Shown piece after piece: positions 1,127-6,990 of a DNA stretch of 7,613 nucleotides. Source of the DNA: Pseudomonadota bacterium (GTDB taxonomy: Bacteria; CALINM01); NCBI GenBank assembly GCA_026415985.1, contig JAOAGA010000075.1, forward strand, positions 1 through 7,613, in the 5' to 3' direction. The position numbers and the translations under genes are program-made. Position 1 is the first letter of the stretch; every line of letters starts with the position of its first letter. Below the pieces are notes generated by a model, which saw nothing but the letters and a program-made list of their open reading frames with translations, was not told where the DNA came from and searched no databases.

Positions 1127-2188
1127 ATGCAAAAAAAATCTTACAAAATTGCAGTTATTCCCGGGGATGGAACCGGTCCTGAAGTAATTAATGAAGGCGT
1201 CAAGGTATTAAAAGCAGTAGGAGAAAAGGAAGGTATTGATTTTGATTTTTCATATATTAATTGGGGTGGGGATAACTACCTACAAACAGGTGTGACCTTA
1301 CCAGATAATTTTAAAGAACAGCTCAAAGGATTTGATGCCATTTACTTAGGTGCTATCGGCCATCCCGGTGTGAAGCCCGGTATTCTGGAAAAGGGGATAC
1401 TTTTAAGACTCCGTTTTGAACTTGATCAGTATATCAATTTAAGACCTGTAAAGCTTTATCCTAATATTGATTGCCCCCTTAAGGATAAGAAACCAGAGGA
1501 CATTGATTTTGTCGTAGTTAGAGAAAATACAGAAGGACTTTATGCAGGTGCGGGAGGAGTTCTTAAAAAAGGTACTGCCGATGAAGTGGCAATTCAGGAA
1601 TCAATAAATACGAGAAAAGGCGTTGAAAGATGTATCAGGTTTGCCTTTGAATACACCAAAAAGAGAAATAAAAAGAAAAAGCTCACCCTTTGCGGGAAAA
1701 CAAATGTGTTAACCTATGCCTTCGATTTATGGGAAAGAACCTTTTATGAAGTCGCAAAGGAATATCCCGATATTACAACCGACTATGTCCACGTTGATGC
1801 CTGCTGTATGTGGATGGTTAAAAATCCAGAATGGTTTGATGTAATTGTTACTGATAATATGTTTGGCGATATCATCACCGACTTAGGTGCAATGATTCAG
1901 GGTGGTATGGGTATTGCTGCCGGGGGTAATATTAATCCTTATGGTATATCCATGTTTGAACCTATTGGTGGTTCAGCACCCAAATATACCGGCTTGGGGG
2001 TCATTAATCCGGTTGCCTGTATTTTGGCGGGAGAGATGCTTCTCAGATATATAAATGAAGAAAGCGCCGCTAAAAGGGTTGAAGATGCCGTTGTCAAGGT
2101 AATAACAACGAAGCTCAAAAGTATGTCCGCAGGCAAGATGGGCTATACAACCTCAGAGGTCGGCGATTTAATAGTTGAAAATCTATAG
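1127..2188 (+). CDS. leuB: Isocitrate/isopropylmalate dehydrogenase family protein, probable 3-isopropylmalate dehydrogenase
   Basis: This is a full-length 353-residue cytosolic beta-decarboxylating dehydrogenase. The most likely reaction is oxidation and decarboxylation of 3-isopropylmalate in leucine synthesis. Visible features in order are the N-terminal [10 protein letters not shown] (11-20), the substrate loop [18 protein letters not shown] with R96 and R106, [11 protein letters not shown] with R132 and Y139, KTNVLT with K191 and N193, YVHVDA with D224, and [11 protein letters not shown] with D248 and D252 for the divalent metal. The cofactor loop is [12 protein letters not shown] (278-289). 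The overall pattern matches the branch of LeuB best known from Actinobacteria. The cofactor loop has Lys286-Tyr287 where classical NAD-dependent LeuB has Asp-Ile, and Gly281 where His is usual. The start is fixed by AAAGGAG at 1114-1120. The stop directly abuts the next gene. No leuA, leuC or leuD is in view, so homoisocitrate or tartrate dehydrogenase activity cannot be excluded. Confidence 0.85.
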
Positions 2189-3442
2189 ATGAATAATAGA
2201 ATTTATCTTATCTCCGGAGATGATGAGTATCAAAAAGAGCAAATAGAAGAAATTATTAAAAAAATCGGTGTAAGCTCTGAAAACATTGATAACATTATCT
2301 CTGGAGATAAAGAATGGCAAACCATAGCCGATGAGGTCAGGACATATTCTCTATTTGGCACTCCTCGTTTATTCATTATAAAAGATGTTGATATCTTTAA
2401 ATCTGAAGAAAAAATTGAAGATATAATTGATAAGGCATTTTCTCTTTATCAATCCAAAGATTATGAAAGGGCCGGCAAAGAAGTTTTAAAGGCACTGAAG
2501 CAACTTGAGCTTTCTGAAGAAGAATTAGACAGTATTATAAGCTCGCCATCAGTTTTAGAAGGGTACTTAGGAAAATCTGATATAAATATCAGTTTCATCA
2601 CAGACCTGATAAAAAAATCTCTCGTTAAAATCGAAAGCCTCAGAAAAAATGAAGAATTTAATTTTGCATCATTAATATCAAACATTCCCGAGGGTCACTT
2701 CGTAATCTTGACTACCAAAGAACTTGATAAAAGAACAAAAAATTTCAAACTGTTTCAAAATGCAGGAACCTTTCTTGAAAAAAAAGAGTCAAAAATATCT
2801 TCAAAAGAGTTAAGAAACAGGATAGATAATGAAATAGATAGCTTTATTAAAGACACAAAAAAACACATATCTCCTGAAGACCTGATATACCTGAAAGAAC
2901 TGGCCTTCGAATCATCTTTCCTGAAAAAGAAACTTGAAAAACTTGCACTTGTAATTGAAAAAAAAGAGTCCATTACAAGAGAAGATATAGATAATACCTT
3001 TGATGACGATACTTTCCCGGATAGCCAGCTGATACCAGAGCTTATAAGAAAAAAAGATCTCAACTCTCTGCTGAAAATAATCCTGAATCCAAGAAACACA
3101 AAGGCAGATTTTATTAAATTAACGGGTTATTTAAGAAGTCTTCTCAGAAATTCAATTGCCATAAGGGAGTTTTCCGCTAATGAAGAATATGATGATTTTT
3201 ACAGTTTTGAGAAAAGATTTTATAAAAAATACTTTGATATCTTGCCAAAGGAAACGCTAAAATCACAACATCCCTATTATCTTTTTCAATGTTACTTAAA
3301 CTTTAAAGATTTCCAACTCCGGGATTTAAAGAGATTCTATCTTTTGCTTTTTGAAATTGACAGGAATCTGAAATCTACTCAGATTACCCCTAAAGATTTG
3401 TTTATAGATTTTTTTACAGAACTGTTTTCTACCAGAAACTAA
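2189..3442 (+). CDS. holA: DNA polymerase III delta subunit (HolA), divergent, with an internal insertion
   Basis: This 417-residue protein is the probable delta subunit of the clamp loader, which opens the beta sliding clamp. The N-terminal strand and helix read IYLISGDDEYQKEQIEEIIK (5-24). TIADEVRTYSLFGTPRLFII (45-64) matches the 'TxSLFG..RLV' segment of HolA. FVILTTKELDKRTKNFKLFQ (171-190) matches the 'LDKRxKLxK' segment. IDSFIKDTKKHIS...FLKKKLEKLALVIEKKESITREDI (216-267) matches the domain before the C-terminal helical collar, and the end carries LRDLKRFYLLLFEIDRNLK (377-395). The protein is longer than the usual 330-350 residues. The excess sits at about 72-165, a charged helical stretch between RLFIIKDVDIF and IPEGHFVILTT. 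No Walker A motif is seen, as expected for delta. The ATG directly follows the upstream TAG with no strong ribosome binding site, so translational coupling is likely. Its 3' end overlaps the convergent cyclase gene by 14 bases. Confidence 0.78.
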   Translation: MNNRIYLISGDDEYQKEQIEEIIKKIGVSSENIDNIISGDKEWQTIADEVRTYSLFGTPRLFIIKDVDIFKSEEKIEDIIDKAFSLYQSKDYERAGKEVLKALKQLELSEEELDSIISSPSVLEGYLGKSDINISFITDLIKKSLVKIESLRKNEEFNFASLISNIPEGHFVILTTKELDKRTKNFKLFQNAGTFLEKKESKISSKELRNRIDNEIDSFIKDTKKHISPEDLIYLKELAFESSFLKKKLEKLALVIEKKESITREDIDNTFDDDTFPDSQLIPELIRKKDLNSLLKIILNPRNTKADFIKLTGYLRSLLRNSIAIREFSANEEYDDFYSFEKRFYKKYFDILPKETLKSQHPYYLFQCYLNFKDFQLRDLKRFYLLLFEIDRNLKSTQITPKDLFIDFFTELFSTRN

Positions 3443-4796
3443 TTTTGCCCTTCTCCGTCTTCTTAACCCTATACATAGCTTTATCGGCTCTGTCAATGAG
3501 GCTCTTTGCATTGAGCCCTGTTGTGTAGCTTGCGATACCTATACTGGCACTTATGATATGTCCTGCAAGGGGTGTGGTTTTTAACATCTCCTGAAGCCTT
3601 TTGGCTGTGCTAAGTGCCCCTTCTTTATTCGTATTAGGTAGCATAATAACAAACTCTTCTCCGCCAAAACGTGCTGCGATATCCACATCTCTTAAGGAAC
3701 TCCTGATAAGGTTGGCCATCTCCTTTAAAACAATGTCACCAACGGTATGACCATATTTATCATTCAGTTGTTTAAAATCGTCAATATCAATAAACATAAT
3801 TGACAGATAGCCTTCATACCTGTTTAATCTTGTAATCTCCTTTTCCAGAGATTTAAAGAAATAGGATCTGTTATATAACTGAGTTAGCGGGTCTATAATT
3901 GACAATCTTTCCAAAGCGATAAAGGTTTGTGCATTATTGAGAGCTATTGCAGCTGCGTCTGCCAAATAGGAGATAAGTTTCATGTCTCTATTAGTAAAAC
4001 TGCCTTCTTTATTAAAAGATTCCACTACTCCCAAAAGCTTTCTTTTGAAAATTATAGGTGCACAAATCAGATTTCTGATTTCATAATCCCTTACAATAAC
4101 TTTAACCCCTGTATCTTTATTAACCTTATCAACTACAATAACTTCTCTCTTCAAGGCACACTTGCCCGCAATTCCTTCTCCTAACTTCAGGGCTATTTCC
4201 TGATCTATACCCTCAGCAATTCTGCTAATTAGCTTTTCACCATCATAAATAAACAGTGTTGTTCTATCTGATTTAAGAACATTGGTGGTTGCCTTCACAA
4301 TCTTTTCCAATAAAAGCTCGTAATCCTTTTCTGATACAAGTTCGTTAAAAATATTAACGATCAGCTCTCTTTCATTCCACCATTTTTCATAGGTCTTTAA
4401 AAAGTTTTTCAAAAAGCTATCGGTAATCTTGATAATAGTATCTATAACTCTGTCATCCACATCCTTTTCTATACCGCATGTTACCCAGTAGGCTATAACT
4501 TTATCAAAAAATTTAACTGGTATTAGAATCTTTCTATAGCCAGCCCAACATTCCTTTGCAGTTACTGATAGATTGGCAAGCCTGAGCTTTGTATCATTCA
4601 TACATTTTTTAAACTCAATCTTATTTTCCAAATGCTTTTTACAATATGAGGGGATGTATGGTTTATCTACAATGACTTTACCTTTCGTATCAAGTATATA
4701 GGCACAAAAACCAAACTTCCCGGAAAAATCAATGACCAGTTGATTAAGCTCTTCTTTGTCAAAAATATCTGTGACGGTAGGCGAGATTAACTTCAT
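3429..4796 (-). CDS. PocR-GAF-GGDEF diguanylate cyclase, second gene of the copper ATPase operon
   Basis: This 455-residue protein has no membrane segment and should be a soluble sensor that makes cyclic-di-GMP from two GTP. Residues about 8-135 look like a PocR-type PAS-related sensory domain, with Cys31, 52, 65, 83 and 107 and the segment CWAGYRKILIPVKFFDKVIA (83-102). Residues about 140-292 are a GAF domain, including LGEGIAGKCALKREVIVVDK (205-224) and ICAPIIFKRKLLGVVES (244-260). The GGDEF domain follows a short helical linker and starts at DPLTQLYNR (302-310). It has Asp337 for metal, FKQLNDKYGH (341-350), an intact GGEEF active site (378-382) and the RxxD inhibitory site R369-D372, five residues ahead. 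It therefore should be an active, product-inhibited cyclase. The start lies 7 bases after the copA stop without a strong ribosome binding site, suggesting coupled translation. The sensed signal is not known. Confidence 0.88.
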   Translation of the reverse strand: MKLISPTVTDIFDKEELNQLVIDFSGKFGFCAYILDTKGKVIVDKPYIPSYCKKHLENKIEFKKCMNDTKLRLANLSVTAKECWAGYRKILIPVKFFDKVIAYWVTCGIEKDVDDRVIDTIIKITDSFLKNFLKTYEKWWNERELIVNIFNELVSEKDYELLLEKIVKATTNVLKSDRTTLFIYDGEKLISRIAEGIDQEIALKLGEGIAGKCALKREVIVVDKVNKDTGVKVIVRDYEIRNLICAPIIFKRKLLGVVESFNKEGSFTNRDMKLISYLADAAAIALNNAQTFIALERLSIIDPLTQLYNRSYFFKSLEKEITRLNRYEGYLSIMFIDIDDFKQLNDKYGHTVGDIVLKEMANLIRSSLRDVDIAARFGGEEFVIMLPNTNKEGALSTAKRLQEMLKTTPLAGHIISASIGIASYTTGLNAKSLIDRADKAMYRVKKTEKGKISFW

Positions 4797-4803
4797 AATA
4801 GTT

Positions 4804-6990
4804 TTATATCTTATTTCTTTTTAAAAGTAAAGAATTCGTTACCACAGAAACGGAGCTGAAAGCCATAGCCAAACCCGCAAACATAGGATTTAAAAGTAAA
4901 CCCCAGAAAGGATATAATATGCCTCCCGCTATAGGTATACCAATGGTATTGTAGATAAAAGCCCAGAAAAAATTTTGTTTAATCTTTGAGAGAATCTCTT
5001 TGCTCAGAACTACCCCTTTATAAATGGTCATTAAGTTTGGTTTAACAATTACTATCTCACCAGCCTCTATAGCGATATCCGTGCCAGAGCCAATGGCAAT
5101 TCCTACATCTGCCGATGCCAGAGCAGGGGCATCATTAATTCCGTCTCCAATCATAGCAACTTTTCTGCCATTCGCCTTCAGATCTGATATAATTTTTTGT
5201 TTCTCCTGTGGTAAAACTTTTGCTCTATAATTGGTAATATTAAGTCTTTTAGCTACCTTCTCTGCAACTTTTTCATTATCCCCGGTAAGCATAATTACAT
5301 CAATATTTAGATTTCTTATATTATTAATAAAATCACCCGCATCATCTCTCAGATTATCAAATAGTGCCATATAACCTAATAATTTTTTTTCATTTTCTTT
5401 TTCAATACCAACATAGATATAGCTAAAGCCCTCTTCTATATCCAATTCTGGAAGGTTAAACCCCTTATCTTTAATAAAATCGAGTGAACCTAAATATACC
5501 TTATCACCCTTTATGTATCCCAAAACCCCCATCCCGGGAACTGTCTCAAACTTAGTTACCTCATAAAAATCATCCTTTCCATATTTTTTAAGAATAGCCT
5601 CTGCTAATGGATGATTTGATGCCTTTTCAAGAGATGAGATAATTTTCAAAAAAATTCCCTCTTCAATGTAAGAAAAGATTTTTACAACTTCAGGCTTACC
5701 AAATGTAAGAGTTCCCGTCTTATCGAGAACAATAGTATCAATACTGGCAAGCTTCTCAATACTCTCGGCATTTTTAAAAAGGATACCTCTCTCTGCACCC
5801 ATACCCGTTCCTACTATCACAGCAGTGGGTGCGGCAAGCCCCAAAGAACAGGGACAGGCAATAATTAATACAGAAATAAGCGTTTTAAGAGCAAAATAGG
5901 TATCAAAACCATATGACTTCCAGAAAATAAAACTTAAGATAGCACAAATAATCACCACCGGAACAAACACACTACTTATCTTATCAGCCATCTTTTGTAT
6001 AGGTGCCTTTGAGCTCTGTGCAGACTCAACAAGCTTTATAATCTGAGATAAAACCGTATTTTCACCTACAGAGCTTGCTTCCATCGTGAAAGTCCCCATC
6101 TTGTTAATTGTCCCTGCAAGGACCTTATCACCTTTTTTCTTCTCAACAGGAATACTCTCTCCGGTAATCATAGACTCATCTACAGAAGAATATCCTTCCA
6201 AAACAACTCCATCCACAGGTATCCTCTGTCCTGACTTAACAATAACTATATCATTTACTTTTACTTCAGAGATCGGAATTTCAACCTCTTTCCCATCTCT
6301 TATAACTGTCGCATATTTTGGCGAAAGCTCAATAAGTTTTTTAATCGCTAAAGAAGTTTTTCCTCTTGCCTTTGCCTCAAGATTCCTCCCTAAAAGGATA
6401 AACATTATCAAAACCGCACTTGTTTCATAATATAGGTGCATACTATCATACCCTTCCTTTTTAAGAAAAATCATAACAGTAACAAAAAGGCTGTATAGAT
6501 AGGCAGTTCCCGTACCTAAGGCGACAAGAGTATCCATTGTTGCGGTTTTAGACCTTATAACCGACCTGATGCCATTCACATAAAACTCCCTGCCAAAATA
6601 CAAAACCGGAGTAGCGAGAACCAACTGAAACAAAGAATTGGCAACTTCAGAATGAAAAAACTTATAAATATGAAAATGTTCAGTCATTGTAAAAAAAGCC
6701 AGAGGTAAGGCAAAGATAAGAGAGAAAATAAAATTTTTTCTTTTTCGGCTTAGCTCTTCTTCAATTTTTACGTCTGGCTCCAAATCGTAAGCTTCATACC
6801 CTGCTGACTTAACTGCCGATTTAATACCTTCAACAGAGATAAAATGGGGATCATATTTTATATTTGCCTTAGCAGTTGCAAGATTAACACTGGCAGAGAT
6901 AACCCCCTTAGTCTCCCTAAGCTTGGTCTCCAACCTGTTCACACAGGAAGCACAATGAAGCCCCTTAATCCCAAAGACTTGTTCTTTCAT
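4804..6990 (-). CDS. copA: Cu(I)-exporting P-type ATPase (CopA, P1B-1 type)
   Basis: This complete 728-residue inner-membrane pump should use ATP to export Cu(I) from the cytoplasm. One N-terminal heavy-metal domain (about 4-68) carries GLHCASC with Cys13 and Cys16. Membrane helices lie at about 87-105, 117-135, 151-175 and 188-205. The actuator domain has TGES (276-279). Helices at about 338-358 and 367-392 include the CPC metal site (379-381). The phosphorylation domain has DKTGT (423-427, Asp423 phosphorylated), and the nucleotide domain has the P1B-specific HP (460-461). TGDN (569-572) and GDGIND (615-620) complete the hinge. The last two helices carry Tyr680-Asn681 and MAFSS (709-713), which with CPC form the Cu(I)-type signature. 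CPC is followed by Ser rather than the common Ala. The ATG fits the family start, but no ribosome binding site precedes it; a -10 box sits 8 bases upstream. It is followed 7 bases on by the cyclase gene. Confidence 0.96.
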   Translation of the reverse strand: MKEQVFGIKGLHCASCVNRLETKLRETKGVISASVNLATAKANIKYDPHFISVEGIKSAVKSAGYEAYDLEPDVKIEEELSRKRKNFIFSLIFALPLAFFTMTEHFHIYKFFHSEVANSLFQLVLATPVLYFGREFYVNGIRSVIRSKTATMDTLVALGTGTAYLYSLFVTVMIFLKKEGYDSMHLYYETSAVLIMFILLGRNLEAKARGKTSLAIKKLIELSPKYATVIRDGKEVEIPISEVKVNDIVIVKSGQRIPVDGVVLEGYSSVDESMITGESIPVEKKKGDKVLAGTINKMGTFTMEASSVGENTVLSQIIKLVESAQSSKAPIQKMADKISSVFVPVVIICAILSFIFWKSYGFDTYFALKTLISVLIIACPCSLGLAAPTAVIVGTGMGAERGILFKNAESIEKLASIDTIVLDKTGTLTFGKPEVVKIFSYIEEGIFLKIISSLEKASNHPLAEAILKKYGKDDFYEVTKFETVPGMGVLGYIKGDKVYLGSLDFIKDKGFNLPELDIEEGFSYIYVGIEKENEKKLLGYMALFDNLRDDAGDFINNIRNLNIDVIMLTGDNEKVAEKVAKRLNITNYRAKVLPQEKQKIISDLKANGRKVAMIGDGINDAPALASADVGIAIGSGTDIAIEAGEIVIVKPNLMTIYKGVVLSKEILSKIKQNFFWAFIYNTIGIPIAGGILYPFWGLLLNPMFAGLAMAFSSVSVVTNSLLLKRNKI

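Follow-up and report, generated by a model that had tools for sequence, protein, structure and literature searches.

DgcZ (YdeH) is a soluble GGDEF enzyme which binds zinc at its CZB domain; zinc inhibits its cyclase activity (PMC8846402). PA14_37690 (PA2072 homolog) is a c-di-GMP protein of Pseudomonas aeruginosa, and its CHASE4 sensor domain is reported to bind copper (PMC13277305). For PocR domains, predictions to date point to small organic molecules as ligands (PMC1592074, PMC4207490, PMC9768040). Such domains are found in the regulator PocR itself and in histidine kinases encoded at propanediol and methyltransferase loci. The operon partner of CopA, the copper ATPase of type P1B-1, is usually a copper regulator or a chaperone. 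In the locus which we describe here the partner is a diguanylate cyclase with a PocR, a GAF and a GGDEF domain. Our search of the open literature, with incomplete coverage, gave no report of an operon of copA with a cyclase gene, nor any paper which deals with PocR and a metal.

The cyclase of this locus resembles DgcZ as a soluble GGDEF enzyme and might, like it, be controlled by a metal. The latter has a helical CZB bundle and holds zinc mainly through histidines, while our cyclase has a GAF-like PocR domain with cysteines, and its gene is linked to copA. PA14_37690 lies in the membrane, with CHASE4 in the periplasm and a GGDEF-EAL output; here the predicted protein is cytosolic, with the order PocR-GAF-GGDEF. 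The PocR regulators share with it the sensor family and three core cysteines, but they differ in output domain and gene context, and the C-terminal third of the PocR profile is unmatched in our domain.

The window, which is the whole stretch of DNA analysed (7,613 bases), is an entire contig of an assembly of 1.57 Mb in 161 contigs, about 84% complete. Its features are the following:

1127..2188, plus strand: gene of the isocitrate/isopropylmalate dehydrogenase family, upstream of holA, kept in 3 of 3 family genomes
2189..3442, plus strand: holA (DNA polymerase III delta), convergent neighbour of the cyclase gene
3429..4796, minus strand: PocR-GAF-GGDEF diguanylate cyclase, 455 aa, with a 65% identical ortholog (L032/L124)
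3450..3899, minus strand: GGDEF domain, residues 300-449, with GGEEF at 378 and the RDVD I-site at 369
3939..4322, minus strand: GAF domain, residues 159-286, with C213 and C245 inside
4347..4460, minus strand: long linking helix from PocR to GAF, residues 115-149 of the AlphaFold model
4461..4775, minus strand: PocR sensor domain, apparently compact, residues 8-112, carrying C31, C52, C65, C83 and C107
4797..4803, minus strand: junction between copA and the cyclase gene, 7 bases; a 4-base ATGA overlap in the ortholog of assembly SKW176
4804..6990, minus strand: copA, P1B-1-type copper-exporting ATPase, 728 aa

The sequence-only reading had placed copA and the cyclase gene on the same strand, 7 bases apart, with neither a promoter nor a strong ribosome binding site in between. 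Coordinates, strand and reading frames all check out. The only promoter-like match in the gap is a weak one (9/12) which overlaps the 3' end of copA, in an AT-rich window where 51 such matches were found and 30 are expected; the gap also lacks a ribosome binding site like GGAGG. The same reading had noted an intact active site and inhibitory site in the cyclase, as well as five cysteines in its sensory domain. These are all present, the cysteines at the positions which it gave, as we describe below.

By its sequence the product of copA is a genuine copper-type P1B-1 ATPase. Its score is 621.9 bits with TIGR01511, the profile of the copper-translocating subfamily (cut-off 397), and 405.7 with that of the cadmium subfamily. 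As in other CopA proteins, the HMA CxxC, the CPC and the MxxSS motifs are present: it has a single N-terminal HMA domain (HCASC), CPC in the membrane and MAFSS near the C-terminus. The genome has a second heavy-metal ATPase (C140, at L123:4103-6205), which we considered as a copper type and rejected: the cadmium/zinc type scores better. This cadmium/zinc-like ATPase has a CCQSC motif in its HMA domain, and pst-like phosphate-transport genes are found directly downstream on the same strand.

In the cyclase, Pfam places PocR at residues 10-106, GAF at 159-286 and GGDEF at 300-449, each above its curated cut-off. The GGDEF match (PF00990) has 160.7 bits with a threshold of 23.8. Its active site is GGEEF at 378, and the inhibitory RxxD site (RDVD, at 369) precedes it by five residues, as is standard (RDVDIAARFGGEEF). 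Judged by these two motifs, the enzyme should be catalytically competent and feedback-inhibited. The PocR match (PF10114) is weaker, 37.8 bits with a gathering score of 23.9, and covers positions 1-101 of the 162 in the profile. Of the seven cysteines of the protein, five belong to the PocR part (31, 52, 65, 83 and 107) and two to the GAF domain (213 and 245).

Relatives of the cyclase were sought in three genomes of the family and in a collection of 84,980 species genomes. A single full-length one was found, 65% identical, in assembly SKW176, which belongs to a second genus of the same family; the pairing with copA, which had been read from one contig, thus extends beyond a single strain. The gene order is identical in both (L032, L124): dehydrogenase gene, holA, cyclase, copA. 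The copA ortholog is 60% identical and has two HMA domains, while there is one in the window. In SKW176 the copA and cyclase genes overlap by 4 bases (ATGA), which makes a single transcription unit very likely and supports the earlier suggestion of one apparent operon. The two cyclases are 79% identical in the GGDEF domain, 64% in GAF and 52% in PocR, with all 7 cysteines kept. We rejected the third family genome as a case which lacks the pair: its contig ends inside holA and is uninformative.

The tail-to-tail junction of the cyclase gene with holA is also conserved between both genera: the 3' ends overlap by 14 bases in the window (3429-3442) and by 17 in the orthologs. The gene holA lies next to the pair in SKW176 too, yet its identity is merely 36%. 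The adjoining dehydrogenase gene is 92% identical between the two genera, so that these neighbours have very uneven rates.

Conserved adjacency has to be compared with that of other genes. About 0.26 Mb of the source genome and about 0.4 Mb of SKW176 gave 81 reciprocal best pairs, with a median identity of 62%. Among genes on the same strand less than 30 bases apart, 80 of 91 tests (88%) find the neighbours still adjacent in the other genus; the value falls to 16/28 (57%) for wider same-strand pairs and to 3/20 (15%) for opposite strands, in tests which are not independent, since every pair is testable from both sides. The pair of copA and the cyclase gene is in this respect no different from others within operons. 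With a base rate of 88% for tight same-strand pairs, its conservation shows an operon, not a coupling to copper. The source genome has about 14 GGDEF matches and an estimated number of about 1,500 genes; a chance meeting of copA with a GGDEF gene in one ancestor would have a probability of about 2% by our estimate, which is not negligible. The best reading is that the copA-cyclase operon is specific to a lineage, in this case two genera (two genomes) of a poorly known bacterial family.

We consider, with a probability of roughly 0.6, that this is a two-gene operon in which the cyclase would be co-expressed with the copper exporter and tuned through its PocR and GAF domains. A single transcript from upstream of copA would code for the Cu(I)-exporting P1B-1 ATPase and for the soluble PocR-GAF-GGDEF cyclase. 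Translation of the cyclase would probably be coupled to that of copA, and an inducer of copA would raise the amount of cyclase as well. The ligand or the redox state of the PocR and GAF domains may then tune the cyclase activity through the long linking helices. Support at the level of sequence comes from the operon layout, the conservation in two genera, the domain motifs and the census of cysteines given below. The genome also encodes a c-di-GMP receptor of the PilZ kind and has other GGDEF genes besides, with 14 matches in total.

A copper operator upstream of copA was sought in the form of inverted repeats: in the window there are AT-rich ones without operator likeness, and in the ortholog none. 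No CsoR was found in the three family genomes. MerR regulators are present, two per genome, none of them on the contig of copA. Since no CsoR has been found and no copper operator recognised, copper induction of copA and of the operon is assumed. If the coupling is true, a single transcript would join copper stress with the change between a free and an attached life, in a bacterial lineage which branches deeply; and a small, soluble enzyme, whose readout is easy, could be used to test the role of the invariant PocR cysteines. If it is false, the PocR cysteines still must not be counted as a sign of metal sensing.

The alternatives which we now discuss overlap with this explanation, and our confidences are not meant to sum to one. 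It is quite possible, at somewhat below an even chance, that the cyclase responds to an unrelated cue, a small organic molecule or a redox state, and merely sits behind the promoter of copA. The conservation of adjacency, being the base rate of operons, agrees with this, and so do the small organic molecules which PocR domains are otherwise predicted to sense (PMC1592074, PMC4207490, PMC9768040). However, the tight spacing is kept in both genera, which speaks for a co-expression that is useful, or at least tolerated, and both genes are intact at 60-65% identity.

The neighbours of PocR genes elsewhere bear on the same question. We searched PF10114 in 386 genomes, of which 80 had matches, and read 105 matches with their surroundings; CopA was compared with every fetched PocR locus by tblastn. 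Outside the family no copA was found near PocR at about 100 loci in about 78 genomes, so that among these the linkage with copper genes does not recur beyond one family. In another family three tandem PocR-GGDEF genes, which follow gmk, rpoZ and coaBC, have no metal genes beside them, which agrees with an unrelated cue. A P1B ATPase within about 6 kb of PocR was found at two outside loci. Both were examined as copper cases and rejected as of non-copper type: one has SPC, the other has CPC without a C-terminal motif of CopA type. They are at least about 2 kb away from the PocR gene, not adjacent to it, and the PocR proteins have other output domains. At the other cyclase loci from the search for relatives no P1B ATPase was found.

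The PocR domain itself was studied through its cysteines and its predicted fold. We aligned 107 other PocR matches with the domain of the window. The position of C52 is a cysteine in 93 of 98 residues, C65 in 97 of 101 and C83 in 94 of 103: these three align with a family-wide core. In a separate alignment, of 83 PocR domains, the cysteines at 52 and 65 do not vary, and conservation at C83 is 90% or more. The position of C107 is a cysteine in 18 of 107 sequences and a glycine in 77, and that of C31 is a cysteine in just 2. Proteins with four PocR cysteines, assigned by reading their sequences, include histidine kinases, an HD-GYP-like protein, small stand-alone PocR proteins and the tandem PocR-GGDEF proteins; none of them, including the PocR-GGDEF loci, has copA nearby. 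In a quick tree of PocR domains that of the window groups solely with its ortholog. The sequence-only reading had proposed that the five cysteines could bind Cu(I) or a cluster. As a copper signature this fails in the family alignment for three of the five, and largely for C107, which recurs in PocR proteins without copper genes nearby. The invariant cysteines are best explained as the general sensing site of the family, rather than as a copper site invented for this operon. C31 alone looks peculiar to the copA-linked pair, and with two sequences it may be drift.

An AlphaFold model of the PocR part (residues 1-150, with 83 domains used) has a mean pLDDT of 92.9. Its five strands are flanked by helices, and at 115 the chain passes directly into a long C-terminal helix (115-149). 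The profile match ends at position 101 of 162, and a diverged C-terminal part would escape the profile too. In the model the domain looks like a compact variant, in which the long helix leading into GAF takes the place of the C-terminal third of the profile. The closest solved folds are GAF, IclR, CodY and roadblock domains, and we are confident that the modelled domain has a fold of the GAF/IclR kind. Searches of solved structures with the whole cyclase gave GGDEF and GAF relatives alone, and the PocR profile gave no significant match. Function was not assigned from the Foldseek/VIA structure matches; this was rejected, as the lists are generic for the fold (CodY, IclR, roadblock, GAF).

Another possible explanation is that the invariant PocR cysteines make up a site within the GAF-like fold, either redox-active or Fe-S, which would report the thiol stress that comes with copper overload. 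Methionine sulfoxide reductases work by cysteine redox chemistry, and the structural matches of the modelled domain include the free methionine-R-sulfoxide reductase (Z 9.7) and the GAF domain of NifA (Z 9.6). The invariance of C52 and C65 would fit such a site. However, IclR and roadblock domains reach the same scores, so that this is a generic match. We find this explanation somewhat unlikely.

A direct copper sensor, in which Cu(I) or another thiophilic metal on the five PocR cysteines would switch the cyclase, so that copper load sets c-di-GMP, is in our opinion unlikely. The link with copA in two genera speaks for it, and all five cysteines are kept in a domain with 52% identity; C31 and C107 are additional to the core of three, and the former is almost unique to the pair. 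Cyclases which sense metals have precedents in DgcZ for zinc (PMC8846402) and in PA14_37690 for copper (PMC13277305). On the other side, three of the five cysteines occur throughout the PocR family, and a fourth is often present in PocR proteins which have no copper genes; there is no CxxC or CxC motif among the five, and other PocR-GGDEF loci with four cysteines lack copA; the two available sequences also leave C31 open to drift. As most of the cysteines are family-wide, they give no specific support to direct sensing of Cu(I) by the cyclase, which is possible. Binding of a metal by PocR, if true, would be without precedent in the literature which we have searched. The narrower form, in which the compact PocR with C31 and C107 added to the core would be a cytosolic sensor of Cu(I) or a thiophilic metal, co-produced with the exporter and directly switching c-di-GMP synthesis, seems quite improbable to us.

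Two other groups of PocR genes were observed in this survey. The three tandem PocR-GAF-GGDEF genes right behind gmk, rpoZ and coaBC are found in two genomes of one family (L206:5566-12708 and L220:5932-13220); they carry the PocR cysteines, with a fourth at 107 in most of them, and form an unusual sensor array on a housekeeping operon. There are also stand-alone PocR proteins of about 170-190 aa (L209:6027-6536, L215, L216 and L230) with a strict pattern of four cysteines which ends in GGC and without any output domain: they could be free sensors or metal or cluster proteins.
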